A stretch of DNA of 64,000 nt from Tetracentron sinense (lineage: Eukaryota; Streptophyta; Magnoliopsida; Trochodendrales; Trochodendraceae): NCBI GenBank assembly GCA_015143295.1, contig CM026562.1, positions 13,792,041 through 13,856,040 on the forward strand. The letters run 5' to 3'. Under the pieces are notes generated by a model. The model did not search any database, was not told the origin of the DNA, and saw only the letters and a program-made list of their open reading frames with translations. Position 1 is the stretch's first letter. Every line of letters starts with the position of its first letter. This document shows positions 2,430 to 59,882 of this stretch, piece by piece. Made by a program: the position numbers and the translations under genes.

Positions 2430-4166
2430 TTCATGTGCTTGACTTGACTTGAAGTACTCCTTTCGTGTCTGAAAACTTGTCTCTTCATGTTCTGCCTTGT
2501 TCATTTTGTCGTGTCATGCCATGTCTTGCTTGTCGTGTCATATCATGTATTTCTTGTCTGGTCGTATCATGCATGCCATGTCATGTCTTGCTTGCTTGGA
2601 ATTTAAACATGCTCATGCTAGTTGTGAGGGAGGGTGGCTTAGAACCCCCTCTTCTTAAATGAGATACAACTTGTGAGGGAGGGGAAACCCCTCTTTAGCG
2701 AAAATGCATTGAAAGTAAACATGCATGCTTAGAGTCTTGCTTGGCGTATTCTTGTTCTTGTCAAAAAGCGAGGCAAAACATATCTTAAGATATGCCCTAC
2801 CTCTATTTACCAACCCTTATGTTTGGCCTTGTCATGGTGTTCGTGAATCGAGAATATAAACCCTAGTCTTGTAAAACATCAGTAAACCATATCGTGCATG
2901 CCGTGCTCGTGAAGTTGTGTACATGCTTTAACTTGGAATTAAACGTGACAATTGGAGTTCAATAATACATGGAATTAGCATTCATTCAACATATAAGAAT
3001 ATTCATGCCATTATGGAAAGCAATTAAATTTATACATGCATTTCTAGAGCTAATTATTCACCTTGGCATTTCATCAAACACTTGGTGTGTACATTATGGT
3101 TAAGGCCTATATCATGATTTTCTAGATGGGTTAATGTTCACAACACACATGTGTGTTCATTATTAATACAATGCCCTTCCCCCTTCGTTCATCACATCAC
3201 ATACACATGGCATCCTTCACCCAACATCCATCTCCATTCATGCATCCCAACTCATAACATATTTATAATTTAGGGAAAACAAAGAATAAGGAAGGGAAAG
3301 GGAAAAACATGACTAGGAGGGTAGCAAAAGGTACCGACCTTCAATAGGATGAGGGAAAAACCTCCAAAATGTGGGCGGAGACGTTACCGAGCTTGGAGGA
3401 GGCGTTTCTCACGAACCTTGCCTTGGATTGGAAGAATCCAAGCCTTTGAGTGATCTAGGTCACCCACTAGCTTAATCTCTCCTCAAAGATGAAAACCCCT
3501 CTTGGAAACCCTCTTCTTCTCTCAATCTCTCTTAGGCTCTCTTTAGGTTTAGGGTAAACCAAAACCCTCAAATACCATCCCCTATTTATAGGCAAGGAGG
3601 AGAAACCCTAAAAAATTCCGAATAAAAATTCTGGGTTCGCGATCTACGATCGATCATAATTTTGCTACGAGTGCTCGTAGTTTCCTACTATCGATTGTAA
3701 CCGTTACAGAGATATTTGTCCATTCCTGAGATTCTACGATCGATCGTAAATTTCTAAGATCGATCGTAGCTCACCTACAATCGTTCGTAGGGTTTGGACG
3801 ATCATTCGTAACTCTTGTAGAAATTTCCGGATTTTCCCATTTTCGTATTTCGGCTATAACTTTTGACTTGTTCATCGGATTTTGACGATTCAACTTGCGT
3901 TGGATTCGTTATTTGGAAAGGAACATTTTTGAGATTTTAGAATTTTTAATTTTCTCTTTATTTATTGACCAAATTGGCCTTAAAGTTAACTGATCCGCAA
4001 TTGAAGTTCAGTAAACCGGATTTTTAACATATCCGACTTAGAAATCCCACTTCTTAACACTTAAGGTTCTTTAAAATTGCTCATTTCATAGAAATGGAAG
4101 ATTAAAAAGGCCTAAAGCCTTGGCATGGGTTCCAATACATGGGCAAAAGTTCCGGGGTTCTACAGA
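2430..4166 (-). mobile_element. Reversed gypsy LTR remnant (LTR A)
   Basis: The right end, CCGGGGTTCTACA, is the reverse complement of the LTR start seen at 42360. The body repeats landmarks of that LTR: the GTGAGGGAGGG stretches, an ATATC..GATATGCCC block, and a block at 3850-3910 matching the conserved segment near the LTR start. A minus-strand TATA box lies at 3582-3593, with CGATCGATCG palindromes upstream of it at 3645-3810. The part corresponding to the LTR 3' end is missing at the left, where the copia LTR begins. No internal gypsy sequence is attached. Confidence 0.8.
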
Positions 4167-4292
4167 TTAGGGATTATTGGAGCCACTGTTGATGCGCCCC
4201 CTCAAGTGCTACAACAACAAGCAGCGTCCACCGAATCCAGTGATGACGAACTTCAATCGGACTACAATGATGAAACTGACACAAACAAATAA
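4167..4292 (+). pseudogene. C-terminal tail of CACTA transposase gene (TNP2-like), truncated
   Basis: An open frame enters at the element edge and ends at a TAA at 4290-4292. It encodes a glutamine- then acidic-rich tail ending ...NDETDTNK. It is followed by an A/T-rich region with AATAAA-like signals around 4430 and then, from 4732, the second CACTA gene. Acidic tails at this position are common in TNP2-type transposases, but the catalytic domain is not in the window. The assignment therefore rests mainly on gene order. Confidence 0.5.
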
Positions 4293-6305
4293 TATTTGTC
4301 AACTTATTGATGAAATACATTGTAGTTTATGTGTTCAAGCCGGTTGCTTACCACTTAGCACACCTTTTGTATATGTATAGGGTCAATGATACCATTGTAA
4401 TACATTTGTGGTGTAAATATAAAATATGAAATAAAATGAAATATTTTATTTGGGTATTGGAGTTTCATGGCCTTTGAATATTATTCCTTCATTGTTATTG
4501 TTATTCGGATACTGTTGTAATGCTGTTATTCTTTGATTGAATTTTATCTATTTTGGGCATTTGAATGTGTTAAAAGTAGGTCAAATTTGATAAATATGCG
4601 TTAAAATGGGACAAGTATGAAAAATATGTTGTGGTTTGTATATTTGCATATTAGTGATCAAACAGACATTTATGTGTTTAAACTCTCTCTATAAGTATGA
4701 AAAATATGATATGTGTTCATTTATTTTGCAGATGGAGCCTACAGTAGGTGATGACACCCCCACAGCCGCCACATCAGGGGCTGCCACCCATGTACAGCCT
4801 CCTCCTATTCCAGGCCCTATCAGGCGGGGCCGAGGCAAGAACAAGTGCCTTAGTTTACACAAACTACCTCTAGGCGAAAAAAAGCAGGTAGTTTGTGATG
4901 ATCATGCTCAGCCAGTAGAGCAGCCAGCCCAGACTTTGGCAGGTTTTCTTGGTACTCTTGCCCGGGATGGGCATTTGTTTCGCCTTGACGTTCCTAGTTG
5001 GATTCACATCCCTAGGAAACGCAAGGAACGTGCGGTATAGATGGTGCGGGTAAGAAAACAAAAAGTCTGATAACCGGACAATTAGTAGTGTTGAGTTACG
5101 TATATTTTTGTTAATTATTTGAAATACTAATCATTTCAAATCGTGTTCCTGGAAAAATTTAATATCCCACCTGAGATAGAGGCATTCTTGGACGACTCCC
5201 TCGTGCATAAATACAGGGACTGGAAGCATAAGCTGAGAAAAAAATACATGACTCCAGAGGCCTCACCGACTGATCTTTATGGTGCGTGTCCCGTGGATGT
5301 GGTGGCGGACCAATGGCGTACACTGGTTGATTTTTGGTTCTTTGAGGAGGGGCAGGTATATTTTATTTCTTTTTCATCATTCTAAATGGTAACAAAAATA
5401 CAACCTGTCACTCTAACCATAATTTAAATTTTATGCAGAAGAGGAGTGCCACAAATCGGGCTAATCGGGCAAAACAGAAGACCCTCCATACAACCGGCAC
5501 GAAGAGCTTCGCTCAGTTGAGACATGAGATGGTAAGTGTGCAATCTTTTTTTAAAAATTATGTTAGTTATTTATAGGGCAGTGATTGGGTTTATGTTGTC
5601 CTATTGTGACTGCCACAGCGAGTTGTGAGCCCCTCTCAAACCTACCCTGGTCGTGCTGATGTGTACATCACAGCGCATACTAGTAGGGATGACAGGCCAG
5701 TGACCGCTGAGGCGGAAGAGAATATGGTCGGTAACTTCATGCTTATGTCATTATAGTTTAATTTCGTCCCCTTCTAACTGCGACATATTAACTATTTGGT
5801 GGAGGTTTGCAGCGCGAGATGCAAGAGCGTATGCATCTCAGCCGGAGGGCTAGCAGGACACCACGAGCCGATATGATATATACGCCCTGGTAATGGGGCC
5901 CGAGCATGGTGGCCGTATAAACACATGTGGATTAGCTGTGACCCCCACCCAGTTATGGGGTGGTCGATCTGCGAGCAGTGCTGGTACCTCTTCTGTTGAT
6001 CCTCAGACTACTGAGAGGCTAAGAGCTCTTGAGGAGTCGAATGCAGCGAAAGATGCGTTACTGGCGGCCCAGGATTTACGGTTGGCGACCATGGAGTGTG
6101 TTATGCAGGAGATTTTATCGAGACAGGTCTATTGAATAAGAAACATTACTTGGTACTTCAAAATATTTAAATATTCATTCATTTATTTACTATCCAAATT
6201 TTGCATGCCAGGGTGCAACTCATCCTTCTACAACACCATGCGCGCCTCCGGAGGTAAATGCTAATGTTATAAGATTTTACTTATAAAATTTAATTACCAT
6301 AAATA

Positions 6306-6600
6306 ATATGGTGGTGGTGCTAGTGGTGGTGGATGGGTGGTGGTGTGCTAGTGGTGGTAGTGGTGGTCCTAGTGGTGGTGGATGGGTGGTGGTGTGTTAG
6401 TGGTGGTTGGGTGGTGCTAGTGGTGGTGGATGGGTGGTGGTAGTGGTGGTGCTAGTGGTGGTGGATGGGTGGTGGTGTGTTAGTGGTGGTTGGGTGGTGC
6501 TAGTGGTGGTGGATGGGTGGTGGTGTGTTAGTGGTGGTGGATGGGTGGTGGTAGTGGTGGTGGATGGGTGATGTTAGTGGTGTGGTGATGGTAGTGGTCT
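6306..6600 (+). repeat. GGT-rich minisatellite in the CACTA intron
   Basis: Irregular GGTGGT/GATGGGTGGTGG units with recurring GTGCTAGTGGTGGTG blocks fill the start of the large intron. It codes for nothing recognisable. Similar GTG arrays occur at 18648-18875 and 19384-19425, outside this element. Confidence 0.9.
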
Positions 6601-6639
6601 AGTTCGACTACCTCGTATTCTGCAAAATATGAAATGAGA

Positions 6640-6990
6640 TTAGGTTGGTTAGCATATTAGTAATGGAAATACCTCATTCTCATAAGTTGGAACACTCTAC
6701 TCTGCAAATTTGAATCTTAGACCTATTTAGTTAGTATGTTAGTAATGGAAATACCTCATTCTCATAAGTTGGAATACTTTACTCTGCAAATTTGAATCTT
6801 AGACCTATTTAGTTAGTATGTTAGTAATGGAAATACCTCATTCTCATAAGTTGGAACACTATATGTAGTTAGCATGTTAGTGATAAAGATACCTCACTTT
6901 CGTGAGTTGGAACACTATACTCTACAAATCTAAAATTAGAGTATACTTAGTTAGCATTTTAGTGATGGATGAATCTCACGTTTATGAGTT
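6640..6990 (+). repeat. 82-bp tandem repeat, about 4 copies
   Basis: The marker ACCTCATTCTCATAAGTTGG occurs at 6671, 6753 and 6835, exactly 82 bp apart. Degenerate copies follow at 6891 (after an internal deletion) and about 6973. The unit is A/T-rich and non-coding. Confidence 0.9.
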
Positions 6991-7251
6991 AAAACTTTAT
7001 GCGTTGAAATTAATTAGGTTGGTTAGCATGATAGGGTTTCTTTATCCCGAACCCACATTCGCCGGGGGTTAAAACGCTATTTGTTTACAATACCACCGAG
7101 ATTTACTCAGATTAATTGGACATTTACTAAGGTTAAAACTTAAGGGTTAGTTTCCAGACCGGGAATTTGGCTTTGACGGTGCCCAAATTGGGCATCGAAA
7201 TCCGAATATTGTTGCTCCAACATTAGATAACACTAAATTTAGAACAAGGAT

Positions 7252-7605
7252 AAAATTTGACCTGCAGATTGCATGTTATGCTTTGATGTACCACCCGGTT
7301 CCTGCACTGCTTATTACAACCGCATTTATGGAAGAAGAAATTTGATAAATTTTCTTACTAAATGACCCTTGCAAGGGTCAGGAATGTCCTCATTCTTAGA
7401 CTGCTCTTGTGGGTACTCTTTACAGTAAAAAGTCCGGTGATGTTGAGGTTCATGATTTATCGATATACATTCTTTTAGAACCTCTTCCTTGACCAGACCT
7501 TCACGTGCGCATACACACAGAATGGATGATGATGACATACAATGACCAAAACAACGTGAACAACAATTTTCACCTTTGGTTATGTCGTTAACATCGTGGA
7601 GGGTT
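7252..7605 (-). pseudogene. Captured SUVR-type histone methyltransferase fragment (pre-SET region), left copy
   Basis: Read on the minus strand this encodes a pre-SET segment typical of the plant SUVR1/2/4 group of SET-domain proteins. Its blocks in order are HDVNDITKGENCC, a cysteine cluster CFGHCMSSSSILCVCA, KNEDIPDPCKGHLVRKFIK, and, after a small frame change, KCGCNKQCRNRVV. The SET catalytic core is not present. Intact SUVR proteins act in the nucleus on H3K9 methylation and transcriptional silencing; this copy is a broken fragment inside a CACTA intron. It faces a second copy at 7985-8304 to form an inverted repeat. Identity rests on recognising the spacing of cysteines and the CKGHLVRKFIK and KCGC..QC.NRVV signatures. 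A related SUVH/SUVR protein is the main alternative. Confidence 0.78.
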
Positions 7606-8304
7606 CTATGTTACTGAATAACCACCAAACTACGTGAATTTGAATAACATGAACTTTGTCATTTCGTTCTCTTCTTATCCCTATCACCATTACTGTTCCT
7701 GATAACTTCCTTTTTGGGATGAAGGTCATCTAAACCATTCAAAGATAGAAGAAATGACATCTCGATGCCCAAATCGGGCTGATTTCAAAATACCTAGTCT
7801 AAATCCAGGTATAAAATTAGTGGAAGACATAGTCGCTCAAATTGGAAATTTTTGCTTTCGAGGTAGTTCTTCGAATGGATAGCCAAATGAAGTTGTCGCA
7901 AACGGTACTAGTGAAAGGAATAAGTCGAGAAATGAATCAAAATTTTAAGCCTATTCAAATTCAGGTATTTTGGTGGTCCTTCAGTAGCACGGATTCCTCC
8001 ACGATGTTAATGACCTAAATCAAAGGTGAATAATGTTGTTCATGTTGTTTTGGTCATTGCATGTTATCATCATCGATTACGTGTGCATGCTGACGTGAAT
8101 GCCTGGTCCAGGAAGAGGTTCTAAACGAATGTATATCTATGAATCACGAGCCTCAACATCATCGGACCTTTTATTGCAAAAAGTGCCCGCATGAGCGACC
8201 CAAGAATGAGGATATTCTTGACCCTTGCAAGGGTCAGTTAGTAAGAACATTTATGAAGTATGTTCTTCCATAAATGCGGTCGTAATAAGCAGTGCAGGAT
8301 TTGG
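7297..8304. repeat. Large inverted repeat: arms 7297-7645 and 7951-8304
   Basis: The arms are reverse complements over about 350 bp with scattered mismatches and small indels, around a spacer of about 305 bp. Both arms contain the SUVR-type fragment plus a little flanking sequence. The spacer contains a GCCCAAATCGGGC motif also found in the neighbouring satellite. A transcript of the host CACTA gene would contain left arm (antisense) then right arm (sense) and could fold back on itself. Confidence 0.88.
7985..8304 (+). pseudogene. Captured SUVR-type fragment, right copy (opposite orientation)
   Basis: This is the same pre-SET region as the left copy but on the plus strand. It encodes HDVND, then a frameshift and stop, CCFGHCMLSSSITCAC, a stop, then EEVLNECISMNHEPQHH, YCKKCPHERPKNEDILDPCK, GQLVRTFMK and a KCGRNKQCR remnant. 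It ends where the 179-bp satellite begins. Its damage differs from the left copy (different stops and substitutions), so the two arms have decayed independently since duplication. It is not a functional gene. Its interest is as one arm of a potential hairpin. Confidence 0.76.
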
Positions 8305-11300
8305 TGAGTTTAGGCCATAGTATAGTATCCAAGTATAGATTTCGGCCGTCTTAGCTCCCAAATCGGGCATACGGCCTCGGATTCGCTCGAAACCAACTTT
8401 AACACTTAGGATATGTTGAAATACAAGCGTTAGAAGAAACGACATTTCAATTCGACCTCCGGTTTGGAAATTGTGGGACGAAGTAGGTTTAGGCCAAAGT
8501 ATAGTATACAAGTATGGATTTCGACCGTCTCGGCACCGAAATCGGGCATACGGCTTTGGATTCGCTCGAAACCAACACCAACACTTAAGATGTAATGAAA
8601 TACACACGTTAAAAGAAACGAGATTGAAATCCGACCCCCGGTTTGGAAATGGTGGGATGATGTGAGTTTAGGCCAAAGTATACTATCTAAGTATGGATTC
8701 CGGCCGTCTCGGCGCCCAAATCGGGCATACGGCCTCGGATTCACTCGATTAGGATATGTTGAAATACATGTGTTAGAAGAAACGACATCTTAATCCGACC
8801 TCTGGTTTGAAAATGGTAGGACGATGTAGATTTAGGCCAAAGTATAGTATCCAAGTATGGATTTCGGTCGTCTTGGCGTCCAAATCGGGCATACGGCATC
8901 GGATTCGCTCAAAATCAACTCCAACACTTAGGATATGTTAAAATACACGTGTTAGAAGAAATGACATCTCAATCTGACCTCTGATTTGAAAATGGTGGGA
9001 CGATGTAGGTTTACGCCAAAGTATAGTATCCAAGTATGGATTCCTGCCATCACGGCGCCCAAATCGGGCATACGGTCTCGGATTTGGTTGAAACCAAATC
9101 CAATACTTCGGATGTATTGAAATACACACATTAGAGGAAATGAGATCGAAATCCGATCCCCGGTTTGGAAATGATGGGACGATGTGGGTTTAGGCCAAAA
9201 TATACTATCTAAGTATGGATTCCGGCCGTCTCGGTGCACAAATCGGGTATACGGCCTCCGATTCGCTTGAAACCAATTCCAACACTTAGGATGTATTAAA
9301 ATACACGTGTTAAAAGAAACGAGATCGAAATCTGACCACCGGTTTGGAAATGGTGGGATGATGTGGGTTTAGGCCAAAGTATACTATCTAAGTATGGATT
9401 CCAGCCATCTCGATGCCCAAATCGGGCATATGGCCTCAGATTCGCCCGAAACCAACTCCAAAAATTAAGATGTATTGAAATACATGCATTAGAAGAAATG
9501 AGATCGAAATCCGACCCCTGGTTTGGAAATGGTGGGACGAAGTAGGTTCAGCGCCCAAATCAGGCATACGGCATTAGATTCGCTCGAAACCAAATCCAAC
9601 ACTTGGGATGTATTGAAATAGGTACGTTAGAAGAAACGGGATCGAAATCCGACCCCCGGTTTGAAAATGGTGGGACGATATGGGTTTGGGCCAAAATATA
9701 CTATTTAAGTATGGATTCCGGCTGTCTCAGTACCCAAATTGGGCATATGGCCTTGGATTTATTCGAAACCAACTCCAACACTTAGGATGTATTAAAATAC
9801 ACGTATCAGAAGAAATGAGATCAAAATCCAGCTCCTGGTTTGGAAATGGTGGGACGATGTAGGTTTAGGCTGAAGTATACTATCCAACTACGGATTTCGG
9901 CAGTCTCATCGCCCAAATCAGGCATAAGGCCTCGGATTCGCTCGAAACCAACTCCAAAACTTAGGATGTATTGAAATAGACACGTTAGAAGAAACATGAT
10001 CAAAATCTGACCCCCGGTTTGGAAATGGTGGGACGATGTGGGTTTAGGCCAAAGTATACTATCTAAGTATGGATTCCGGCTGTCTCGGTTCTTAAATTGG
10101 GCATACAGCCTCAGATTCGTTTGAAACCAATTCCAACACTTAGGATGTATTGAAACACATGCATTAGAAGAAACAGGATCGAAATCCAGCCCCCAGTTTG
10201 GAAATGGTGGGACGATGTAGGTTTAAGCCGAAGTATACTATCCAACTACGGATTTCGACCGTCTCGTCGCCCAAATCAGGCATAAGGCCTTGGATTCGCT
10301 TGAAACCAACTCCAACACTTAGGATGTATTGAAATAGATGCGTTAAAAGAAACATGATCAAAATCTGACCCCCGGTTTAGAAATGGTGGGACGATGTGGG
10401 TTTAGGCCAAAGTATACTATCTAAGTATGGATTACGGCAATTTCGGTGCCCAAATCGGGCATACGGCGTCGGATTCACTCAAAACCAACTCCAACACTTA
10501 GGATGTATTGAAATACACGTGTTAGAAGAAACAAGATCGAAATCTGATCCCCGGTTTGGAAATGGTGGGATGATGTAAGTTTAGGCCATAGTATAGTATC
10601 CAAGTATGGATTTCGACCGTCTTGACGCCCAAACCGGGCATATGGCATTTGATTCAATCGAAACCAACTCCAACACTTAGGATTTATTGAAATACACGTG
10701 TTAAATGAAACGGGATCGAAATCCTATCCCCGTTTTGGAAATGGTGGGACGATGTAGGTTTAGGCTATAGTATAATATCAAAGTATGGATTTCGACCGTC
10801 TCGGCGGATTCCAACTCCAACACTTAGGATGTATTGAAATACACGCGTCAGAAGAAATGTGATCGAAATCCAACCGCCGCTTTAGAAATGGTGAGACGAT
10901 GTAAGTTTAGGCCGAAGTATACTATCCAACTATGGATTTCGGCCGTCTCGTCGCCCAAATCGGGCATAAGGCCTCGTATTCGCTCGAAACCAACTCCAAC
11001 ACTTAGGATGTATTGAAATACACACATTAGAAGAAACGAGATCAAAATCCAACCCCGGTTTGAAAATGGTGGGATGATATGGGTTTAGGCCAAAGTATAC
11101 TATCTAAGTATGGATTCTGACCGTCTCGGTGCCCAAATCGGGCATACGGCTTCAGATTCACTCGAAACCAACTCCAACACTTAGGATTTATTGAAATACA
11201 CGCGTTAGAATAAATGGGATCAAAATCCGAACCCCGGTTTGGAAATGGAGGGACGATGTAGGGTTAGGCCATAATATAGTATCCAAGTATGGATTTCGAC

Positions 11301-12345
11301 CGTCTCGACCCCCAAATCGGGCATACGGCATCGGATTCACTCGAAACCAACTCCAACACTTAGGATGTATTGAAATACACGCGTTAGAAGTAACAGGATC
11401 GAAATCCAACCCCCGGTTTGAAATGGTGGGATGATGTAGGTTTAGGCCGAAGTATACTATCCAACTATGGATTTCGGCCATCTCGTCGCCCAAATCGGGC
11501 ATAAGGCCTCAGATTCACTCGAAACCAACTGCAACACTTAGGATGTATTGAAATAAACATGTTAGAAGAAACGGGATAAAAATTCAACCCCCGGTTTGGA
11601 ATTGGTGGGACGATGTGGGTTTAGGCCAAAGTATACTATCTAAGTATGGATTCCGACCGTCTTGGTACCCAAATCGGGCATACGGCGTTGGATTCGCTCG
11701 AAATCAACTCCAACACTTAGGATATATTGATATACACATGTTACAAGAAACATGATTGAAATCCGATCCCCGGTTTGGAAATGGTGGGATGATGTAGGTT
11801 TAGGCCATAGTATAGTATCCAAATATGGATTCCTGCCGTATTGACGCCCAAATCGGGCATACAACATCGGATTCGCTTGAAACCAACTCCAACACTTAGG
11901 ATGTATTGAAAGACACGCGTTAGAAGAAATTGGATCAAAATCCAACCCTCGGTTTGGAAATGGTGGAACGATGTAGGTTTAGGCTGAAGTATACTATCCA
12001 AGTATGAATTACGGCTGTCTCAGTGCCCAAATCGGGCATACAGCATCGAATTCGCTCGAAACCAACTCCAACACTTAGGATGTATTGAAATAGACGCGTT
12101 AGAAGAAACTGGATCGAAATCTGACCTCCATTTTGGAAATGGTGGGACGATGTGTGATTTAGGCAAAAGTATACTATCTAAGTATGGATTTCGGCCATCT
12201 CGGTGCACATATCGGGCATACGACCTCGGATTCGCTTGTAACCAACTCCAACACTTACGATATGTTGAAATACACGCGTTAGAAGAAACGACATCTCAAT
12301 CCGACCCCCGGTGTGGATTTGGTGTGCATTTGTAGGTTTAGGCCA
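8305..12345 (+). repeat. 179-bp satellite array, about 22-23 monomers
   Basis: The marker GTGGGACGATGT (and variants) recurs at 8475, 8654, 8998, 9176, 9355, 9534, 9851, 10030, 10209, 10388, 10567 and 10746, then on to 12323. Spacing is 178-180 bp almost throughout. A few shorter steps (about 138, 147 and 164 bp) reflect internal deletions in single monomers. Each unit carries an interrupted palindrome, GCCCAAATCGGGC. Monomers are diverged from one another but keep strict length. The array starts at the end of the right SUVR arm and ends about 140 bp before the final exon of the TNP1-like gene. Short open frames here are repeats of the same monomer and are not genes. Confidence 0.95.
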
Positions 12346-12561
12346 ATGAACTAAACATGTATGTGTTAATCTCAATAAGTATGAAAAATCAGAGATTAGT
12401 TTTTTAATTTGCATATTAGTGATGACATCCTTAAATTTTTTCATTTTTATATTCTAATAATGAATTATATTTTCTTATTTTTGTAGGAGGGAGTCGGTAG
12501 CACTCATCTCTCGGGTTTGGGTGGAACAGGAGACCGGGACATAGCTAGAGGGAGCTGCTAG

Positions 12562-12828: not shown

Positions 12829-13252
12829 TAGCGGTGGTTTTTACCGCAGTTATTTTATTTATTATAACGGCGGTTTTGACTGCCGTAAACGATTGAATAA
12901 GTAACGATGGTTTCGGAAACCCTCGTTATATCCAGAAATTTATTTACGATATTGCCCTTCAATGAACATCGTTATAAGTATAATTTACCGCCATTAAAAT
13001 GTCATATACAACGACGGTTTTTAGCACCGTCGTTATATCTAAAAATTTATTTACAATATTGCCCTTGAATAACAGTCGTTACAAGTGTAAATTACCGTCG
13101 TTGATAATGTACTAAATAGCCGCGGTTATAAAAACCGCCGTTAAAATCATTTGCGACAACATGTCCACCGACGGTCTATATAACCGCCGTTATATTAAAT
13201 AATGGCGGTTTTTCATCTTTCAGCGTCGGTTCTTGACCGCCGCTGAAAACCT
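12829..13252 (+). promoter_or_regulatory. CACTA 3' subterminal repeat region
   Basis: About a dozen copies of a motif like AACGGCGGTTTT and its complement (CCGCCGTTAT, ACCGCCG, GCGGCGGT) occur in both orientations. In CACTA elements such clustered subterminal motifs are bound by the TNP1-type protein. The 3' terminal inverted repeat follows immediately. Confidence 0.85.
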
Positions 13253-13266
13253 TGAATTTTGTAGTG
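13253..13266 (-). repeat. CACTA 3' terminal inverted repeat
   Basis: The end AATTTTGTAGTG is the reverse complement of CACTACAAAATT. The next bases, CTT, would be the 3-bp target duplication, but its partner cannot be checked because the left end of the element is not in the window. Confidence 0.85.
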
Positions 13267-30536: not shown

Positions 30537-30589
30537 CTAGTCCTTATAGAATTTCTGGTTTAACAACCTTAGAGAAAAGATCAATATAT

Positions 30590-31702
30590 ATGGCAAACAA
30601 TACTTTTGCAACTAGCTTAGGAGAGGGCCAATCGACCACTAGGCCTCCACTGTTCAATAGGGAAAATTACAACTAATAGAAAACCCGGATGATGTACTAC
30701 ATCCAAGCCCTTGACTATCAATGCTGAAAAGTGATAGTCAATGGCCCATTCCTTCCAACAAAAATTGTTAATGAGGTAGAAATACCTAAAGTTGAGAAAG
30801 AATGGATCGAGGCCGACATTAAACTCATTCAAATAAATGTTAGGGCAATTAGCAACTTGTATTGTGGTTTAAGCCCACAAGAGTTTAATAGATTGTCAGG
30901 ATGTGACACAACCAAGGCGATTTGGGATAAACTCCAAGTCACCTATGAGGGCACTAATCAAGTAAAGGAAGAAAAGATTAGTATGATAGTTCATAAGTAT
31001 GAACTTCTTAAAATGGAAAAAGGATGAATCCATTGGTAGTATGTTTACTAGATTTACAAACATTATTAATGGCTTAAAAGCCCTTGGGAATGTGTACTCT
31101 AATACAGAAAATGTGAGGAAAGTTCTTCGTTCACTACCAAAGAGTTGGGCTCCCAAAGTAACAGCTATTCAAGAAGCTAAGGATCTCACAAAATTGGCTA
31201 TGGATGAGCTACTAGGATCCTTAATGACACATGAGATAATTATGAAGGATCAACAAGAAGAAGAGCCCAAAGCCAAAAGGGACTTGCCTTGAAGTCCACA
31301 CAAGAGAGTGAGGATGAAGAAAGTAATGAGAAGAATGATGATATTGCCCTCATGACAAGAAAGTTCAAGAAATTCCTCAAGCATAAGAAGAATTTCAAGA
31401 AGAGGCCATTCAAGAAGAATTTCTCCAAAGAAGTAGCTAAAGGGGAATCAAGCAAGAAGGATCTCATCATATGTTTTGAGTGCAAGAAATTGGGACACAT
31501 CAAGATTGAATGTCCTCAACTCAAGAAGAGCCAAAGATATAGAAAAAGGTCTATGAAGGCAACTTGGGATGATTCCGAAGAAAGCGGATCCGATTGCTCA
31601 AGTGATGAGGAGGTAGCCAACCTATGTCTCATGACAAATGAGGATGAGGTAATTCCTTCTCAAAATGAATCTCTTACTTATGATGAAATTAGAGATGCAT
31701 TT
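30590..31702 (+). pseudogene. Copia gag (SIRE/Maximus-like), broken
   Basis: It starts MANNTFATSLGEG and has the same domain order as the minus-strand gag at 1-1299: DUF4219-like, UBN2-type, basic stretch, and zinc knuckle CFECKKLGHIKIEC. Stops near 30676 and 30721 and frameshifts near 31020 and 31290 inactivate it. The frame is split exactly at 31702 by a solo LTR and continues at 33489-33494. Nucleocapsid role in the element particle. Confidence 0.88.
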
Positions 31703-42359: not shown

Positions 42360-44755
42360 TGTAGAGCCCCGGACCTTTTCACATTTTAGGCATGACACTT
42401 TCGTTGCCATTTTGCCTTTAAAGAGGTATAATAAATAAATAAGGAAGAAATTGGAAATTTCAAAATATCAGAAATGTTCCTTTTCGAAGTACGAACCCAA
42501 CACAAGTTGAATCGTCAAAATCGGATGAACGAGTCAAAAGATATGGCCAAAATAGTCTGGACCTGCAAGCAATCGTAGCTCGGTTATGCACTAAGGACGT
42601 AGCTCGGAAGGCACTAAGGACGTGCTCCGATAACGTAGCTCTAGCTCTGATAACGTATTCGTTGTGCATCCGTTGTGCAACAGACAACGGGTACGTTGTA
42701 CAGCAACAATGGGTACGTTGTACAGCAACAACGGGCACGTTGTACAGCAACAACGGGCACGTTGTACAGCGACAATGGGCACGTTGTACATAAGACAACG
42801 GACAACGAGCTCAGCACTATGCACAACACACAGCACAACATGTTCAGCACTGTTCACTGCACAACGTGTTCGGCACTGTTCACAGCACAACGTGTTCAGC
42901 ACTGTTCACAGCACAACGTGTTCAGCACTGTTCACAGCACAACGTGTTTGGCACTGTTCACAGCACAACGTGTTGGGCGTTCGTGTGTTTGCAGAAACTT
43001 CAGTAAAGGTATTATGGTCTTTTGGTCGGTTCACTCTTACCTTAAGAGTTTAACCCGAGCCTTTAGGGCTCATTCTCAACACTTAGAGAGATTGGGAGAT
43101 AAGAAGAGAGGAGAGGGCGATTCCTAAACCTAGGGTTTCCATTTTTGGAGAGAAATCAAAGGGTTTTGAGACCCTAGATCACTTCCAGTCCGGGTTTTCT
43201 CCAAGATCTCGGCTCAAGCACTCGTGGAGAGCGTTCTCCAAGCTAGGGCAGAAGCTACACAGTCGTTTTGGAAAGGGGATTTCTTCCTCACTTGATCAAG
43301 GTCGGTACTTCTTGCTACCCTCCTAGTTATAGTTCCTCTTTCCCCTTTATTTCTCTTTATTTTCCTTTATTTACACATGTGCTATGAGATAGAGGGTTGT
43401 GAATGGTGAATGGAGATGGTATGGGCGACTGGATGCCAATGGTTGTGTTGTGATGATTATAATGGGGAGGGCATTGTTCCAATAATGAACATACATGTAT
43501 GATTTGAGTAAAACCCATCTAGAAAAGCATGTTGTAGGGTAAATCGATAATGAACACACCATGTTTGATGAAATGCCAAGGTTAATAAAGTGAGTTTTAA
43601 TTTAGGAAATGCATGCCTAATAAATTATGGATATTGCTAGGGCCTATGATAGTGTGTTTTCTTGCTTTCCCTAAATGACATGAATATTACATTGCTCAAT
43701 CATTGATGTTATATGTGTTGTGAAATCACCTAAATGTCATATTTAAATTTAAATGCAAGTATGTACACGATTCCCACGAGCACGGCATGCATGACATGAT
43801 TTATCGAGGTTTTCAAGAACATGGTTAGAGGTGGGACATATCCTACGATATGTTTTACCTCGCTTTTCACAAGAAGACAAGAACCAACATTACACGAGGG
43901 GTCTCCCCTCACTCACAAGTGCATATCATGAAGAAGGGTCTCCCTTCCCTCGCAAGTGCATTGCATAAAGAAGGGTCTCCCTTCCCTCTCAAGGCATCTC
44001 TCAAGTGCATCTCACAAGGATATCTCACAAGTGTATCTCACAAGTTACATGATCACAAGCAAGCACGCATGACATGCATGACATGACACGTACGACGCGC
44101 TCGACAAGATCAAGTAAGACAAACACGACAAGCTTTCAAGTACGAAAAGATATTTCAAGCCAAGTCAAGTGCACGATGTTTTCAAGAGGTTTTATCGGAT
44201 TTCTACAAAATACAAGCATGATTATAAATTGTTTTACTTCCTTGTATGATATGAATTGTTTCCTGCTTTATGTATGCTATCTGTATGCTATGACTGTTGG
44301 TTAGTGCTTAGTACCTGCTGAGTATTCCATGCTCAGCCGTACTTCTTATGTCGGCAGGTGATGGCGGAGCAGCTGCTCCTTTTGATGTCTGGGCTCCGAG
44401 CCCTTGGGTGGAGGAGGAGTACATCGAGGAACCTTTGGAGGAACCTCCAGTAGAGGGTTACCATTAGGTGGTTGTAGATTCTGAGTGAATAGCTGTGGGT
44501 GAGATGAGAGATATACATTCATGTATTTTGGCGGGTCTGCCCGCACTTTCTTTTGGTTACTTTTGTATAAACTTGGATTACCATGTGTATATACTTAGAG
44601 GTTGTTAGACTTCCGCTGTGTTTTATAGTTATGTTTCCGCTGTCATCCTCTATTGTATATGCTCTATGGGTTTTGCAGGTTGGTTGCCAAGCAAGTCATG
44701 ATTAGTCGTCCAAAGTTCACTCTAACTCTCCTAGGGTGGGTTTTGGGTCGCGACA
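42360..44755 (+). repeat. Gypsy LTR 1
   Basis: It runs TGTAGAGCCCCGG...GGGTCGCGACA, 2396 bp. Compared with LTR 2 it has two more 22-bp units of the ACAACGGGCACGTTGTACAG type, accounting for the 44-bp length difference. The 3' half contains GAAGGGTCTCCCTTCCCTC repeats and an ATATCCTACGATATG inverted pair. Confidence 0.95.
42690..42978 (+). repeat. 22-bp and 26-bp tandem repeats in LTR 1
   Basis: First about five units of a 22-bp CAGCAACAACGGGCACGTTG-type repeat, then about six units of a 26-bp TTCAGCACTGTTCACAGCAC-type repeat. Both are built around AACGT/ACGTT. They are open in several frames because of their periodicity and are not coding. Shorter versions occur in LTR 2 (about 50260-50510) and LTR 3 (about 57795-58042). 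Confidence 0.9.
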
Positions 44756-44759
44756 GAAG

Positions 44760-44771
44760 TGGTATCAAAGC
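44760..44771 (+). other. Gypsy primer binding site, copy 1
   Basis: TGGTATCAAAGC, one base from the tRNA-Met-type consensus, four bases after LTR 1. Confidence 0.85.
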
Positions 44772-45115
44772 TTAGGCTTTAGGTCTCTAGGGTCACTTAG
44801 AATCTTATACCACGGCTTGACAAGAGCATATGTTAGGAAACAAGTTAGGAAGGAAGTGAGTCGGAAACGAGTCTGGTTCCAAGTTTAAGACTAAACTTTA
44901 GTCTTAGTCTAAAATGGTTGCTTTAACCAAGTACGGTCCTAGATACACCAGAACACTAAAGTATAAGTATAATGTGATGAATACTCTGATGACTTGATGT
45001 GATGTATATTAGTATTATACAGCTAATACAAATTGAATTATTGTGAAACGACATTGAAATAAGCTGTGGTTTCAAGTGAGACTCATGTGGTGCTATTGTT
45101 CTCAGGACTTTAGTC

Positions 45116-46364
45116 ATGAGGCGGGGCACACGGGGTCGTGGACCACACACCAGAGCTTCATCTTCTTCCAGAGATGAGGATGAGCAGCCGGACCTCTCCC
45201 AGGTCTTAGGCTCTATTGCTGAGACACTCGCCATACTGGCGGCTCGGCAAGCTATACCATCGTCGGCGGCACCTACTCCACTGCCCGCAGCTCCAGTACA
45301 TCGTACAGCTGGAGTTGAGGCATTCAGGAGATTGCGGCCTCCACCATTCCATGGGAGTGTGGACCCTCTTGCTGCGGAGGCATGGATCCTCCAGATGGAG
45401 AAGATCTTTGCGGTCCTCTCGCCTACAGAGGAGGATAGAGTAGCATGGGCAGTTTTCATGCTAGAGAGCGAAGCCCACCATTGGTGGTTGTCCGCATTGA
45501 GGATGCGAGATTTGACCATGCAGGGTCAACCTTGGACTTGGGAGGAGTTCAAGGACACTTTTTATAAGAAGTACTTTCCGATCGGAGCACGGGAAAGGAA
45601 AGAGAGAGAATTCATCAACCTTGAGCAAGGTTCGATGTCAGTAGCATAATATGAAGCTAAGTTCTCGGAGCTCTCTAGATTTATGCCTCACATGGTGGCT
45701 ACTGAGGCAAGGAAGGCGAGGAGATTTGAGCAAGGGCTCAAGGATGTTATCATGGAGAAGGTTTCGGTTTTCAGACATGCTACCTACCCTGAGGTAGTAG
45801 ACAAGGCCTTATTGGTCGAGGCCAATTCAGAGACAGTGTCCAAGAAGAGGGAGTTGGCAAGAGGCCAAGCCAGTAGTTCAGCACCTCCAGAGAGGCGGGC
45901 TCGTACCTGCCCTTATCAGTATGCGTGGCCAGCACCACCGATGAGGCCATCTTATGCGCCTCTAGCTCCACGGCAGTATGTGCCTCAGGCACCACGACCT
46001 CAGGCTCTTCCAGCTCCACGGCCAGTTGCACCTCAGACGTTGAGGTATGCTCCACCTCCGGCCCCTCTGACCTATACACACGAGGTCTGCACTTCGTGCG
46101 GCCGAAGGCATCCGGCAGGAGATTGCCGAAGGGCATCGGGTAGATGCTTTCATTGTGGTCGCCAGGGCCATATGATCAGGGATTGCCCCAGTCGGCATTT
46201 ACCAGGCCAGTCTCAGGGGATTAGGCCCCCAGCACACCCAACAGGATCATATCAGGCGTCATCCCAGACTACCCGGGCTACACCTCCGCCTCGCCAGGCG
46301 AACCAGGGGCGAGTTTTTACCTTAATAGAGGGTGATGCACTTGCATCTGACGATGTGGTGCAAG
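45116..46364 (+). pseudogene. Gypsy gag, copy 1, one in-frame stop
   Basis: It starts MRRGTRGRG. A retrotransposon gag domain follows with AWILQMEKIF and WEEFKDTFYKKYFP, then an Ala/Pro-rich region and two zinc knuckles, CTSCGRRHPAGDC and CFHCGRQGHMIRDC. The frame is cut once by TAA at 45647-45649, where the family would have a Gln codon. The open frame then resumes to 46364. Reading on without splicing adds a short tail and stops at about 46490; splicing at 46365 would join it to protease. Capsid/nucleocapsid role. Confidence 0.9.
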
Positions 46365-46508
46365 GTACGCGTTTGGAGTTATTTTCTTTATTCGTGATTG
46401 TTATGTTATGTTTTATTCATTGTGTACGTACTTGGTATGCTATATATATATATACCTATGTGTATACACTGTTGATGCTTGAATTGACGTAACTAGCTAA
46501 AATTTCAG
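46365..46508 (+). other. Putative intron between gag and pol, copy 1
   Basis: 144 bp with a GTACGC donor and a pyrimidine-containing ...AAATTTCAG acceptor. It is A/T-rich, unlike the flanking coding DNA. Joining the flanks restores a continuous frame (..DVVQ then GTLLV..). It contains a stop codon in the gag frame. A TAACTAG-like branch region lies just upstream of the acceptor. Splicing is inferred, not shown. Confidence 0.7.
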
Positions 46509-49500
46509 GAACCCTACTAGTCAATGAGTGTTTGGCTCGAGTGTTGATTGATACCGGGTCTACTCATTCGTTTGTCTCGCCGAGTTTTTCAGAAGGCTTT
46601 TCTGTGGAGCCTACTCAGCTAGAACCGGAGTTAGCCATTTCGACTCCTCTAGGCAAAACAGTATTGGCAGATAAAGTGTATAGAAATAGCGTGGTCCAAG
46701 TTGGAAGCCACGAGTTGGCGGTTGATCTCATTGTCCTTGGATTCCAAGACTTTGATTTTATATTGGGAATGGATTGGTTAGCGGCACATCACGGGCATGT
46801 AGCTTGCTTTGAGAAAATGGTACTCTTCAAGCTAGTAGAAGGGAAACCATTCCACTTTCGTGGGTTGAAAAGTAGAGATATTGCTCGTTTTACGGCATTG
46901 AGCTTAGCTAACCCCGAGGCAAAGGACTCATCGACTATTCCGGTTGTGAGTAAATTCTTGGATGTGTTTCCAGAGGAGTTGCCGGGATTGCCTCCAGATA
47001 GGGAGATTGAGTTTGTGATCGAGCTTGCACCAGGCACAGCTCCTGTTTTCAGGGCTCCATATAGAATGGCCCCTATTGAACTCAAGGAGTTGAAGACTCA
47101 GTTGGAGGAATTGCAAGGCCTTGGTTTCATTCGACCAAGTGTCTCACCGTGGGGTGCCCCGGTGTTGTTTGTTAAGAAGAAAGATGGTTCGATGCGGATG
47201 TGCGTCGATTACAGGCAATTGAACAAAGTCACTATAAAGAATAGGTATCCCTTGCCTAGGATTGATGACTTGTTCGATTAGTTGAAGGGAGCGAGATTTT
47301 TCTCAAAGATAGATCTTCGATCGGGCTATCACCAGTTGAAGATTAAGGTGGAAGATATTCCCAAAACGGCTTTCCGGACTCGATACGGACACTACGAGTT
47401 CTTGGTAATGCCTTTTGGTCTCACAAACGCGCTGGCAGCTTTTAAGGATTTAATGAATCGGGTGTTTCGGCCATATCTAGATCGATGCGTAATAGTGTTT
47501 GTCGACGATATCTTGGTGTATTCCCAGACACGGGAAGATCACATGCGAGACCTTCGCCTTGCTTTGGAAATGCTGAGAGAGCACAAGCTATACGCTAAAC
47601 TCAGTAAGTGTGAGTTTTGGTTGGAAGAGGTGGCATTCTTAGGCCACGTTGTTTCTGTGGAAGGCATCTCGGTTGATCCAAAGAAGATAGATGCAGTCAT
47701 GAGTTGGGCGAGGCCCAAGAGTGTCACAGAGATACGTAGTTTCCTTGGATTGGCAGGCTACTACAGGAGATTTGTAGAGGGTTTCTCTAGCCTTGCGGCA
47801 CTGCTCACTTACCTGACAAGGAAGAACGCCAGGTTTGTATGGAGTGATAAGTGCGAAATCAGTTTCACGGAACTGAAGAAGAGGCTTACTACAGCCCCTG
47901 TCCTTACTGTGCCATCCGGACCTTATGGGTATGAGGTGTATAGTGATGCCTCACACGTTGGACTTGGGTGTGTACTCATGCAGCACAAGAAATTCATTGC
48001 CTATGCATCAAGGCAGTTGAAGGAGCATGAGAAGAATTATCCCACGCACGACTTGGAGCTTGCGGCGGTCGTGTTTGCACTTAAGATTTGGCGTCATTAC
48101 CTTTATGGGGTGGAGTTCTATGTGTTCACTGATCACAAGAGTCTCAAGTATCTCTTTTCCCAAAAGGAGCTGAATCTAAGGCAACGGCGTTGGATGAAAT
48201 TTTTGAAAGACTATGATTATACCATTCAATACCACCCGGGTAAAGCAAATGTAGTGGCTGATGCTTTGAGTAGAAGACCTCCAGGGTTATTAGCATGCAT
48301 GTTAGTACAGGAATGGAAGCTACTTGAAGACTTGGCAAATCTGGACATTAGTGTGAATGACTCTGTCCATAGTCCTATCTTGGCAAATGTCACGGTTCGG
48401 CCATACATTATAGATTTGATCCAAGAATACCAAGCCACGGATGCTGAATTGTTGGATTATCGGGACAAGGAAGTTGCTAAGGGTAGTGAGGACTTCTCTC
48501 TCACTAGCCGAGGTGCTATCACATTCAAGGGAAGGCTGTGTGTTCCAGCCAATGCAAATCTTCGGAGAGAGATTATGGATGAAGCCCACCGGGTAAAGTA
48601 CACTGTGCATCCAGGGGGTACGAAGATGTACCGGAACCTCAAGAGTCACTTTTGATGGCGGAATATGAAGAGGGAGGTTGCGGAATATGTAGCACGGTGC
48701 TTGGTGTGCCAACAGGTGGAAGCAGAACACATGCGGCCCGCAGGTCTATTACAGTCCCTTCCGATTCCAGAGTGGAAATGGGAGAACATATCCATGGATT
48801 TCATAATTGGCTTGCCAAAGACGGCAAGGGGCTCAGATGCGATATGGGTAGTAGTGGATCGTTTGACGAAGTCCACTCACTTCTTACCTTACCGAACTAC
48901 CTTCAACTCTAGTCAGTTAGCCGCTTTGTACATCAAGGAAGTGGTGAGGTTGCACGGAGTGCCCGTTAGTATTGTGTCAGATCGGGATCCAAGATTCACA
49001 TCACGATTCTGGAAAAGCTTCCAGGAGGCTATGGGTTCCCAACTGGATTTCAGCACCGCTTTTCATCCACAGACGGATGGACAAACCGAGAGAGTGAACC
49101 AAGTCATTGAAGACATGCTTCGGGCTTGTATGTTGGATTTCAGAGGCAGTTGGGAAGAGCACTTGCCTTTGGTTGAATTCGCCTATAATAACAGCTATCA
49201 GGCGAGTATCCAAATGGCACCATTTGAGGCCTTGTATGGGCGAAGTTGTAGGTCTCCTCTCTATTGGGATGAGGTAGGAGAAAGGAAAGTACTTGGTCCG
49301 GAGTTGATTGAGCAAACTGCAGGCACAGTTAAGATCATTCGGGATCGATTGAAAGCCGCTCAAAATCGCCAGAAAAGTTATGCGGACATGCGCCGTAGGG
49401 GCTTGGAATTTCAAGTAGGGGATCAAGTTTTTGTGAAAGTATCTCCTAGCAAAGGGATCATGAGATTTGGAAAGCGAGACAAGCTCAGTCCTCGGTATGT

Positions 49501-49834
49501 TGGGCCTTTTGAGATTATCACACGAGTGGGTGAGGTTGCTTACAGGGTAGCTCTCCCACCTCACATGGCCGCAGTTCACAACGTCTTCCATGTGTCTATG
49601 CTTCGGAAGTACATTGCGGATCCTTCGCATGTCATAGACTTGGAACTGTTGGAGATTCGAGAGGACCTCACCTTGATTGAAAAGCCGGTTCAGATTTTGG
49701 ATCGAAGAGATCAGGTGCTTCGCAACAAGACAATCCCTTTGGTTCTTGTGCAATGGCAACACCATGCTCGGGAAGAAGCTACATGGGAGCGTGAAGCCGA
49801 AGTCAAAGCAAAGTACCCAGAATTAATTGAATGA
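46509..49834 (+). pseudogene. Gypsy pol, copy 1: protease, RT, RNase H, integrase, chromodomain
   Basis: Protease has [13 protein letters not shown]. Reverse transcriptase has [20 protein letters not shown] and the catalytic FVDDIL box (about 47498). RNase H has [10 protein letters not shown]. The integrase zinc region has [10 protein letters not shown] and CLVCQQVE. The integrase core shows its acidic triad in MDFIIG, VSDRDPRF and GQTERVNQ. The C-terminus has a chromodomain-like fold segment (VLVQWQHHAREEATWE) that in this lineage targets heterochromatin. Two in-frame stops, TAG at 47279-47281 (Gln position) and TGA at 48653-48655 (Trp position), disable it; otherwise the frame is intact over 3.3 kb. 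The TGA falls in the zinc region, separating the 47282-48655 and 48665-49834 open frames. Confidence 0.92.
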
Positions 49835-49920
49835 GTTTTTGTATAAGTCTGTATAAGACTTGTAATTTTCTGTTTGGTTTGTAATGCAAGTAGCGTCTAA
49901 ATTTCGAGGACGAAATTTTT

Positions 49921-49935
49921 GTAAGGGGGGGAGGA
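49921..49935 (+). other. Gypsy polypurine tract, copy 1
   Basis: GTAAGGGGGGGAGGA immediately before LTR 2; plus-strand priming site. Confidence 0.85.
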
Positions 49936-52287
49936 TGTAGAGCCCCGGACCTTTTCACATTTTAGGCATAACACTTTCGTTGCCATTTTGCCTTTAAAGA
50001 GGTATAATAAATAAATAAGGAAGAAATTGGAAATTTCAAAATGTTAGAAATGTTCCTTTTCGAAGTACGAACCCAACACAAGTTGAATCGTCAAAATCGG
50101 ACGAACGAGTCAAAAGATATAGCAAAAGCAGTCTGGACCTGCAAGAAATCGTAGCTCGGTTATGCACTAAGGACGTAGCTCGGAAGGCACTAAGGACGTG
50201 CTCCGATAACGTAGCTCTAGCTCTGATAACGTATTCGTTGTGCATCCGTTGTGCAACAGACAACGGGTACGTTGTACAGCAACAACGGGCACATTGTACA
50301 GCGACAACGGGCACGTTGTACATAAGACAACGGACAACGAGCTCAGCACTATGCACAACACACAGCACAACGTGTTCAGCACTGTTCACTGTACAACGTG
50401 TCCGGCACTGTTCATAGCACAACGTGTTCAGTACTGTTCACAGCACAACGTGTTCAGCACTGTTCACAGCACAACGTGTTTGGCACTGTTCACATCACAA
50501 CGTGTTGGGCGTTCGTGTGTTTGCAGAAACTTCAGTAAAGGTATTATGGTCTTTTGGTCGGTTCACTCTTACCTTAAGAGTTTAACCCGAGCCTTTAGGG
50601 CTCATTCTCAACACTTAGAGAGATTAGGAGATAAGAAGAGAGGAGAGGGCGATTCCTAAACCTAGGGTTTCCATTTTTGGAGAGAAATCAAAGGGTTTTG
50701 AGACCCTAGATCACTTCCAGTCCGGGTTTTCTCCAAGATCTCGGCTCAAGCACTCGTGGAGAGCGTTCTCCAAGCTAGGGCAGAAGCTACACAGTCGTTT
50801 TGGAAAGGGGATTTCTTCCTCACTTGATCAAGGTCGGTACTTCTTGCTACCCTCCTAGTTATAGTTCCTCTTTCCCCTTTATTTCTCTTTATTTTCCTTT
50901 ATTTACACATGTGCTATGAGATAGAGGGTTGTGAATGGTGAATGGAGATGGTATGGGCGACTGGATGCCAATGGTTGTGTTGTGATGATTATAATGGGGA
51001 GGGCATTGTTCCAATAATGAACATACATGTATGATTTGAGTAAAACCCATCTAGAAAAGCATGTTGTAGGGTAAATCGATAATGAACACACCATGTTTGA
51101 TGAAATGCCAAGGTTAATAAAGTGAGTTTTAATTTAGGAAATGCATGCCTAATAAATTATGGATATTGCTAGGGCCTATGATAGTGTGTTTTCTTGCTTT
51201 CCCTAAATGACATGAATATTACATTGCTCAATCATTGATGTTATATGTGTTGTGAAATCACCTAAATGTCATATTTAAATTTAAATGCAAGTATGTACAC
51301 GGTTCCCACGAGCACGGCATGCATGACATGATTTATCGAGGTTTTCAAGAACATGGTTAGAGGTGGGACATATCCTACGATATGTTTTACCTCGCTTTTC
51401 ACAAGAAGACAAGAACCAACATTACACGAGGGGTCTCCCCTCACTCACAAGTGCATATCATGAAGAAGGGTCTCCCTTCCCTCGCAAGTGCATTGCATAA
51501 AGAAGGGTCTCCCTTCCCTCTCAAGGCATCTCTCAAGTGCATCTCACAAGGATATCTCACAAGTGTATCTCACAAGTTACATGATCACAAGCAAGCACGC
51601 ATGACATGCATGACATGACACGTACGACGCGCTCGACAAGATCAAGTAAGACAAACACGACAAGCTTTCAAGTACGAAAAGATATTTCAAGCCAAGTCAA
51701 GTGCACGATGTTTTCAAGAGGTTTTATCGGCTTTCTACAAAATACAAGCATGATTATAAATTGTTTTACTTCCTTGTATGATATGAATTGTTTCCTGCTT
51801 TATGTATGCTATCTGTATGCTATGACTGTTGGTTAGTGCTTAGTACCTGCTGAGTATTCCATGCTCAGCCGTACTTCTTATGTCGGCAGGTGATGGCGGA
51901 GCAGCTGCTCCTTTTGATGTCTGGGCTCCGAGCCCTTGGGTGGAGGAGGAGTACATCGAGGAACCTTTGGAGGAACCTCCAGTAGAGGGTTACCATTAGG
52001 TGGTTGTAGATTCTGAGTGAATAGCTGTGGGTGAGATGAGAGATATACATTCATGTATTTTGGCGGGTCTGCCCGCACTTTCTTTTGGTTACTTTTGTAT
52101 AAACTTGGATTACCATGTGTATATACTTAGAGGTTGTTAGACTTCCGCTGTGTTTTATAGTTATGTTTCCGCTGTCATCCTCTATTGTATATGCTCTATG
52201 GGTTTTGCAGGTTGGTTGCCAAGCAAGTCATGATTAGTCGTCCAAAGTTCACTCTAACTCTCCTAGGGTGGGTTTTGGGTCGCGACA
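49936..52287 (+). repeat. Gypsy LTR 2 (middle, chimeric)
   Basis: 2352 bp. Its first part shares variants with LTR 3 (GGCATAACAC, AATGTTAG, AGATTAGGAG, the shorter repeat array). Its last part shares variants with LTR 1 (GGTTAATAAAG, CTATGATAGTG, GTACCTGCTG). The switch lies between about 50625 and 51115. Confidence 0.92.
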
Positions 52288-52291
52288 GAAG

Positions 52292-52303
52292 TGGTATCAA
52301 AGC
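52292..52303 (+). other. Gypsy primer binding site, copy 2
   Basis: Same 12-base site as copy 1, after LTR 2. Confidence 0.85.
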
Positions 52304-52647
52304 TTAGGCTTTAGGTCTCTAGGGTCACTTAGAATCTTATACCACGGCTTGACAAGAGCATATGTTAGGAAACAAGTTAGGAAGGAAGTGAGTCGGAAAC
52401 GAGTCTGGTTCCAAGTTTAAGACTAAACTTTAGTCTTAGTCTAAAATGGTTGCTTTAACCAAGTACGGTCCTAGATACACCAGAACACTAAAGTATAAGT
52501 ATAATGTGATGAATACTCTGATGACTTGATGTGATGTATATTAGTATTATACAGCTAATACAAATTGAATTATTGTGAAACGACATTGAAATAAGCTGTG
52601 GTTTCAAGTGAGACTCATGTGGTGCTATTGTTCTCAGGACTTTAGTC

Positions 52648-53896: not shown

Positions 53897-54040
53897 GTAC
53901 GCGTTTGGAGTTATTTTCTTTATTCGTGATTGTTATGTTATGTTTTATTCATTGTGTACGTACTTGGTATGCTATATATATATATACCTATGTGTATACA
54001 CTGTTGATGCTTGAATTGACGTAACTAGCTAAAATTTCAG
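53897..54040 (+). other. Putative intron between gag and pol, copy 2
   Basis: Identical in position and, by eye, in sequence to the copy-1 intron; GT and AG conserved. Confidence 0.7.
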
Positions 54041-57366: not shown

Positions 57367-57452
57367 GTTTTTGTATAAGTCTGTATAAGACTTGTAATTT
57401 TCTGTTTGGTTTGTAATGCAAGTAGCGTCTAAATTTCGAGGACGAAATTTTT

Positions 57453-57467
57453 GTAAGGGGGGGAGGA
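57453..57467 (+). other. Gypsy polypurine tract, copy 2
   Basis: Same purine run as copy 1, immediately before LTR 3. Confidence 0.85.
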
Positions 57468-59817: not shown

Positions 59818-59882
59818 GTTTCAATCTAAGAAAAATTGAATGTAAAATGAAAAATCAAGTTTCTCAGATTTTTAGCTTAAAA

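Follow-up and report, generated by a model that had tools for sequence, protein, structure and literature searches.

A SUVR-derived inverted repeat carried by CACTA transposons of Tetracentron sinense: a candidate counter-silencing hairpin

Young MIRNA genes can arise through inverted duplication of their target gene, and in maize the transposon-related inverted repeat Mu killer silences MuDR. Host-gene pieces are also borne by CACTA elements, known as Pack-CACTA and discussed together with other transduplicated gene fragments of plants in a review (PMC13317346). The closest precedent for the locus described here is miR820 of rice. According to the report on it (PMC3459959), miR820 lies in CACTA elements, with five copies in Nipponbare rice, resembles both exon and intron of OsDRM2, which encodes a DNA methyltransferase, and directs cleavage of the OsDRM2 mRNA; lowered OsDRM2 accompanies higher transposon expression. 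In related species, miR820 and its target site are reported to have changed in step with each other. The first-pass annotation of the DNA studied here, which left this precedent unnamed, proposed that an inverted repeat of a captured SUVR-type silencing gene, inside a CACTA intron, might act as a counter-silencing device. Among the open-licence papers searched, miR820 was the only small RNA of a plant transposon directed against a host silencing gene, and no published SUVR hairpin in a transposon was found.

We analysed a window of 64,000 nucleotides from Tetracentron sinense, and searched the genome to which it belongs (1.16 Gb) for the source of the repeat and for its copies. Within the window, the two arms of the inverted repeat are 81.7% identical over 415 columns with one gap (E 3e-114) and are separated by a loop of 171 nt (Table 1). 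The local score of the repeat is 534, against a maximum of 79 among 200 shuffles, and the predicted RNA fold of positions 7300-8299 reaches -556 kcal/mol (z -38.9 relative to 20 shuffles). The inverted repeat is real and far exceeds chance. Its two head-to-head arms had been put at about 350 bp; at about 414 nt each, they are slightly longer. Searches of positions 6900-8700 with Rfam models gave no match to a curated miRNA family up to an E of 1, and Pfam and PDB searches with the arm fragments themselves returned no match.

The origin of the arms can be read from the host genome. A search for the WIYLD domain, which we take to be the mark of SUVR1/2/4 proteins and hence of a source gene of this type, resulted in 8 matches at 5 places, and the C14 match is adjacent to two exons, one for pre-SET (3.8e-13) and one for SET (4.4e-10). 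The arms align with this C14 SUVR gene at the protein level (tblastn 3e-49, 71% identity in a 114-column alignment). At the nucleotide level, the left arm of the window copy is 77-78% and the right arm 74-75% identical to it, and the consensus arms of the copies share 76-80% of its bases. The C20 paralogue, which shares 74.8% identity with the C14 gene, is a poorer match to the hairpin. It is well supported by these comparisons that the hairpin derives from a host gene with WIYLD, pre-SET, and SET domains, of SUVR1/2/4 type (L029/L037), so that the captured SUVR-type pre-SET segments proposed from the letters alone find their counterpart in a gene of the same genome.

The alignments also indicate how the fragment was captured. 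The left-side match runs 47 bases beyond the end of the SUVR exon, into the intron. Because it enters the intron past the 5' splice site, the captured DNA was genomic (exon and part of an intron), and the intron sequence beside the left arm rules out capture from a spliced mRNA. Relative to the SUVR gene, identical exon pieces are missing from both arms and the same frameshift is found in both. These common deletions and frameshift imply that one already broken fragment was inverted, i.e., that decay or rearrangement came first and inversion second, and they rule out a chance double insertion or two separate captures. The loop pieces match other parts of the same SUVR exon, and copy L054 has this region as a single 537-column stretch.

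Table 1. Positions in the window of the hairpin, its parts, and the CACTA element around it.
Feature	Position	Strand	Basis or remark
Predicted upstream exons of the TNP1-type gene, stop present in the window copy	4733..6253	+	joined reading frames match PF03004
Predicted last intron of the TNP1-type gene	6254..12486	+	sequence reading; recurring splice-like sequences
Left-arm continuation beyond the SUVR 5' splice site, intron sequence (L037 2198-2244)	7215..7261	-	
SUVR-derived hairpin cassette	7252..8304	.	self-comparison, RNA fold; same unit recurs in other copies
Left arm, SUVR exon pieces in antisense orientation (L037 1541-1735 and from 1861 onward)	7300..7713	-	
Candidate guide segment, exact complement of C14 SUVR mRNA	7341..7366	+	
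Loop, further SUVR exon pieces at 7779-7827 and 7847-7888	7714..7884	+	copy L054 has contiguous exon sequence
Right arm, SUVR exon pieces in sense orientation (L037 1596-1738 and 1861-2159)	7885..8299	+	
Right-arm partner of the candidate segment	8233..8257	+	own conservation not significant, p 0.23
179-bp satellite array, about 22 units, directly adjoining the hairpin	8304..12346	+	
Predicted last exon of the TNP1-type gene	12487..12561	+	sequence reading, inference
CACTA 3' terminus	13251..13266	-	exact in the window

The gene upstream of the hairpin is of the TNP1 type, as its joined reading frames in the window copy match Pfam Transposase_24 (PF03004, 1.2e-26). Its predicted last intron extends over 6,233 bp, from a donor GT at 6254-6255 to an acceptor AG at 12485-12486, and the earlier placement of the hairpin in a 6.2-kb last intron of a CACTA TNP1-like gene stands as a prediction. 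Of 21 copies, 16 have a donor-like sequence upstream of the hairpin and at least 11 have an acceptor-like sequence downstream. The CACTA 3' terminus was matched by pattern in 7 of 21 copies, from the three lineages A, B, and C defined below, fetched stretches of others stopping near or before the terminus; a matching 5' terminus was looked for within the 64-kb window and not found.

Several other features were recorded in these elements and in the window. CACTA elements with the same hairpin have different terminal sequences, CACTACAAAAYTTGAGC and CACTACAAAATTCAAGG (L023, L024, and L025 versus L016, L017, and L022), and the 179-bp satellite of the predicted CACTA intron also occurs in most fetched copies. 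The stretch 4164-4300 is probably the end of a putative TNP2, and 8 of 20 copies also have it upstream of TNP1; a repeat at 2859-4163 ends just before it and has relatives at 42.4-43.8, 50-51.4, 57.5-58.9, and 62-63.4 kb. A unit of about 7.5 kb is repeated in tandem at 42360-59818, where 42360-52288 shares 99.1% identity with 49936-59818; this is either a recent large duplication or an assembly feature. A Copia-type gag open reading frame (312 aa, with a zinc knuckle; Pfam 8e-33) lies at 247-1185 on the minus strand, and an inverted copy of 193-1300, 77% identical, at 30589-31702.

The search of the genome with the hairpin gave 233 candidates, and all 40 scored matches (window included) span both arms; the 39 other than the window have 86-92% identity. 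Both arms are also present at 15 of 16 fetched places from outside the first match list, the remaining one (L043) having one arm. Counting both arms together, a left-arm 27-mer occurs 211 times within 3 mismatches (control, 0), and markers with a single place in the hairpin occur, at the same tolerance, 114 times for the loop and 135 times for the right arm (controls, 0 and 1). The hairpin is thus shown to be in more than 100 places of this genome. When elements were selected by TNP1 instead, at least 30 of 39 had a hairpin marker within 4.5 kb downstream, these being the 39 scored, i.e., best, of 2155 candidates found with the TNP1 of a hairpin-bearing copy as query, a choice that may favour bearers. 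Two of the nine elements without the marker were read: they lack the hairpin and their junctions differ, which suggests deletion. That the hairpin is a family-wide cassette is well supported by these counts, and the first-pass annotation's own doubt, that relatives might lack the repeat and this copy be a chance double insertion, finds no support in them. The copies in hand number 37 (the window, L009-L028, and L040-L055). The alignment used below has 32 rows, omitting L028 (a near-duplicate of L027), L043 (one arm), and L048, L051, and L054 (more diverged or cut by the fetch).

For the comparison of lineages we used 20 copies fetched with about 4 kb on each side. Their TNP1 regions form at least three groups: A (the window and L011), B (L012 and others), and C (L023-L025, L027, and others). 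The TNP1 of A and B are about 68-69% alike across most of the gene, and can be aligned with C only in short parts; the hairpins average 91% likeness across all 21 copies. Similarity profiles show the likeness climbing inside the last intron, and beyond the hairpin L009 and L010 have little in common with the window across the 600 bases that precede it. In five A-B pairs the transversion distance is 0.156-0.176 for TNP1 and 0.020-0.031 for the hairpin, about six times smaller, whereas in six within-lineage pairs the two are alike (TNP1, 0.016-0.030; hairpin, 0.015-0.029). The cross-lineage likeness is therefore not the result of a slowly evolving hairpin: within groups the hairpin is no slower than TNP1, constraint cannot explain the likeness, and the hairpin was exchanged between lineages. 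Exchange between the diverged lineages A and B, via recombination or gene conversion, is well supported by these distances. It is firmest for this pair, because the comparison of B with C is thin for TNP1 (0.138 over only 116 bases and 0.048 over 475 bases, with 0.035 and 0.027 for the hairpin).

The arms themselves give a relative date for the inversion. The consensus arms differ at 51 of 414 pairs (about 13%), 6.5% by transversion, and the transversion value between copies is 3.1%. Since the former is about twice the latter and below the A-B distance of TNP1, the inversion is older than the spread of the hairpin and postdates the A-B split, barring gene conversion between the two arms. The arm differences that predate the spread comprise 24 transitions and 27 transversions, compared with a ratio of about 2:1 between copies; the ancestral lineage may long have been free of methylation.

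These data bear on the view that the hairpin is inert: an accidental inversion, harmless in an intron, would have multiplied with the elements and passed between lineages by ordinary recombination, SUVR never being affected. Evolution at the TNP1 rate within lineages is what such a passenger would show, and elements without the hairpin do exist (the two that were read), but the finding of a single hairpin across diverged lineages argues in the other direction. More evidence comes from the pattern of decay. Changes among copies are mostly C-to-T and G-to-A (per-copy rates in 20 copies: CG 15%, CHG 12%, CHH 7%, A or T 2%), and the tree of the copies is star-like, with 91% of its length in terminal branches. 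C-to-T and G-to-A decay in such contexts is a sign of methylated DNA, and the studied copies look methylated and decaying. In the alignment of 32 copies, both members of a pair have changed in 47 cases, with 51.7 expected. On the TNP1-sense strand, 344 transitions preserve pairing as G:U and 395 produce A:C. Neither compensatory nor wobble-keeping changes are in excess, and no selection on pairing across the entire hairpin was found. The loop does not evolve faster than the arms (rate ratios of 0.92 for the loop and 0.98 and 1.05 for the arms). The neutral-looking rates of arms and loop and the absence of compensatory changes are consistent with a passenger.

The same decay could be taken as the trace of a self-silencing trigger, in which 24-nt small RNAs from the hairpin would methylate the transposon itself, the match to SUVR being a by-product. 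The strength of the hairpin and the C-to-T decay at CG, CHG, and CHH are in agreement with this. Yet the arms bear no methylation footprint of their own at CHH (0.066 and 0.082, not above the 0.076 of the loop), and a trigger of this kind would be expected to be lost, whereas the hairpin is common and exchanged between lineages. We consider it improbable.

The longest exact run to the host exon lies at the same position in both consensus arms (30 nt in one and 35 nt in the other, with runners-up of 21 and 20 nt). All 32 aligned copies have 21-mers identical to the host SUVR exon (3-31 per copy), and 30 of the 32 have a perfect 21-mer at the place of the longest match. Such matches would also follow from camouflage, a possibility set out in the review PMC13317346: strong silencing would come at a cost to the host when the element bears part of a gene that the host needs, as small RNAs against the transposon would hit SUVR too. 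Camouflage requires neither an inverted repeat nor a special segment, however, and the copies look methylated nonetheless; we give it very little credence, even less than self-silencing.

Within this place, the 26 nt at 7341-7366 have the lowest observed/expected ratio of 1032 windows after the spread of the copies (5 changes versus 27.7 expected), and are exact in 24 of 32 copies, the highest count among all windows, two of the 32 rows (L045 and L050) being deleted there. Outside the alignment, L043 is exact, L048 and L051 have 1 mismatch, and L054 has 2. Scan p values by ratio are 0.001-0.015 across several window lengths, two context models, and parsimony counts; by z-score they are weaker (0.013-0.136), and with parsimony counts the minimum z falls elsewhere, in the loop, at a satellite-like motif. 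The conservation of the partner strand in the right arm is not significant alone (Table 1). The loop also contains a 22-mer (7758-7779) identical to part of a satellite unit (9406-9427), and its surroundings are the other slow region of the hairpin.

Exact copies of the segment number 92 genome-wide, one in the SUVR gene and the other 91 outside it, and 362 copies occur within 3 mismatches when both arms are counted (control, 1). The segment is a perfect complement of the C14 SUVR mRNA and has 4 mismatches to the C20 paralogue. In an out-of-sample set of 73 previously unused copies, selected by the loop marker, it is exact in 44, against 30 for the loop marker itself (McNemar p 0.020) and 29 for a right-arm control (p 0.017); the share expected from context rates is about 0.42 (p 0.0013). 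Two other selections of copies gave 24/45 and 43/76. The effect thus holds out of sample more weakly, at well below its size in the discovery set, and a slow segment of this kind could also arise from a mutational cold spot that escaped the context model. The slow segment, which lies at the longest host match of both arms and is partly replicated, counts against an inert hairpin.

The reading that we favour, at a probability of roughly 45%, is counter-silencing of the miR820 kind, in which the SUVR-derived CACTA hairpin would yield small RNAs that lower SUVR mRNA. A genomic fragment of the host SUVR gene was captured by a CACTA element, rearranged, and then inverted, downstream of the TNP1 exons and beside the satellite array. 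During the active life of the elements, transcription of TNP1 on the plus strand would have produced the hairpin as part of an intron, with the SUVR-antisense left arm on its 5' side. Dicer enzymes would cut this intronic hairpin; the resulting small RNAs, for the most part from 7341-7366 and without mismatch to the C14 SUVR mRNA, would lower that mRNA, and less SUVR protein could favour transposons. Counter-silencing is thus viable as a hypothesis, with a single modest signal from sequence evolution in its favour, and an inert passenger is nearly as likely. A fuller scenario, in which the hairpin was traded among diverged CACTA lineages about when each amplified and the 26-nt antisense segment was kept as a miRNA-like guide against C14 SUVR, seems rather unlikely on the sequences at hand. 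The counter-silencing device of the first-pass annotation is supported in its direction, by the SUVR-identical 21-mers of all 32 copies and the one conserved stretch; the lack of compensatory or wobble-keeping excess, the loop that is no faster than the arms, and the methylation-type decay speak against a hairpin kept whole.

Set beside the known systems, the locus resembles young MIRNA genes in its long arms and in a similarity to the target gene that extends over both sides, and differs from them in being transposon-borne, present in many copies, and already about 13% different between consensus arms. Like Mu killer, it is a transposon-related inverted repeat able to form a hairpin RNA; Mu killer silences a transposon, whereas the arms of the SUVR hairpin match a host gene. 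With Pack-CACTA, as presented in PMC13317346, it shares host-gene pieces inside CACTA, and it departs from them in being inverted, in originating from a silencing gene, in its presence in most tested copies of the family, and in its exchange between lineages. This exchange is of interest even without a function, as it shows that a captured gene module can move from one transposon family to another, and lineages with and without the hairpin offer a natural comparison. The likeness is closest to rice miR820, which, according to PMC3459959, is also a fold-back in CACTA, similar to exon and intron of a silencing gene and multiplied with the transposon. An antisense small RNA against the silencing gene is demonstrated for miR820 and only predicted for the SUVR hairpin. 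The latter further differs from miR820 in its SUVR-type source, its arms of about 414 nt, its position in a predicted TNP1 intron, its occurrence in diverged CACTA lineages, and its number (more than 100 places versus five copies in Nipponbare rice). If the fuller scenario of a traded hairpin with a conserved guide is true, the hairpin would be a second, independent weapon of the miR820 type, directed at a different branch of silencing and passed from transposon to transposon by exchange. Counter-silencing by the SUVR hairpin, in a plant other than rice, against a different gene, and from more than 100 copies, would make miR820 part of a pattern.
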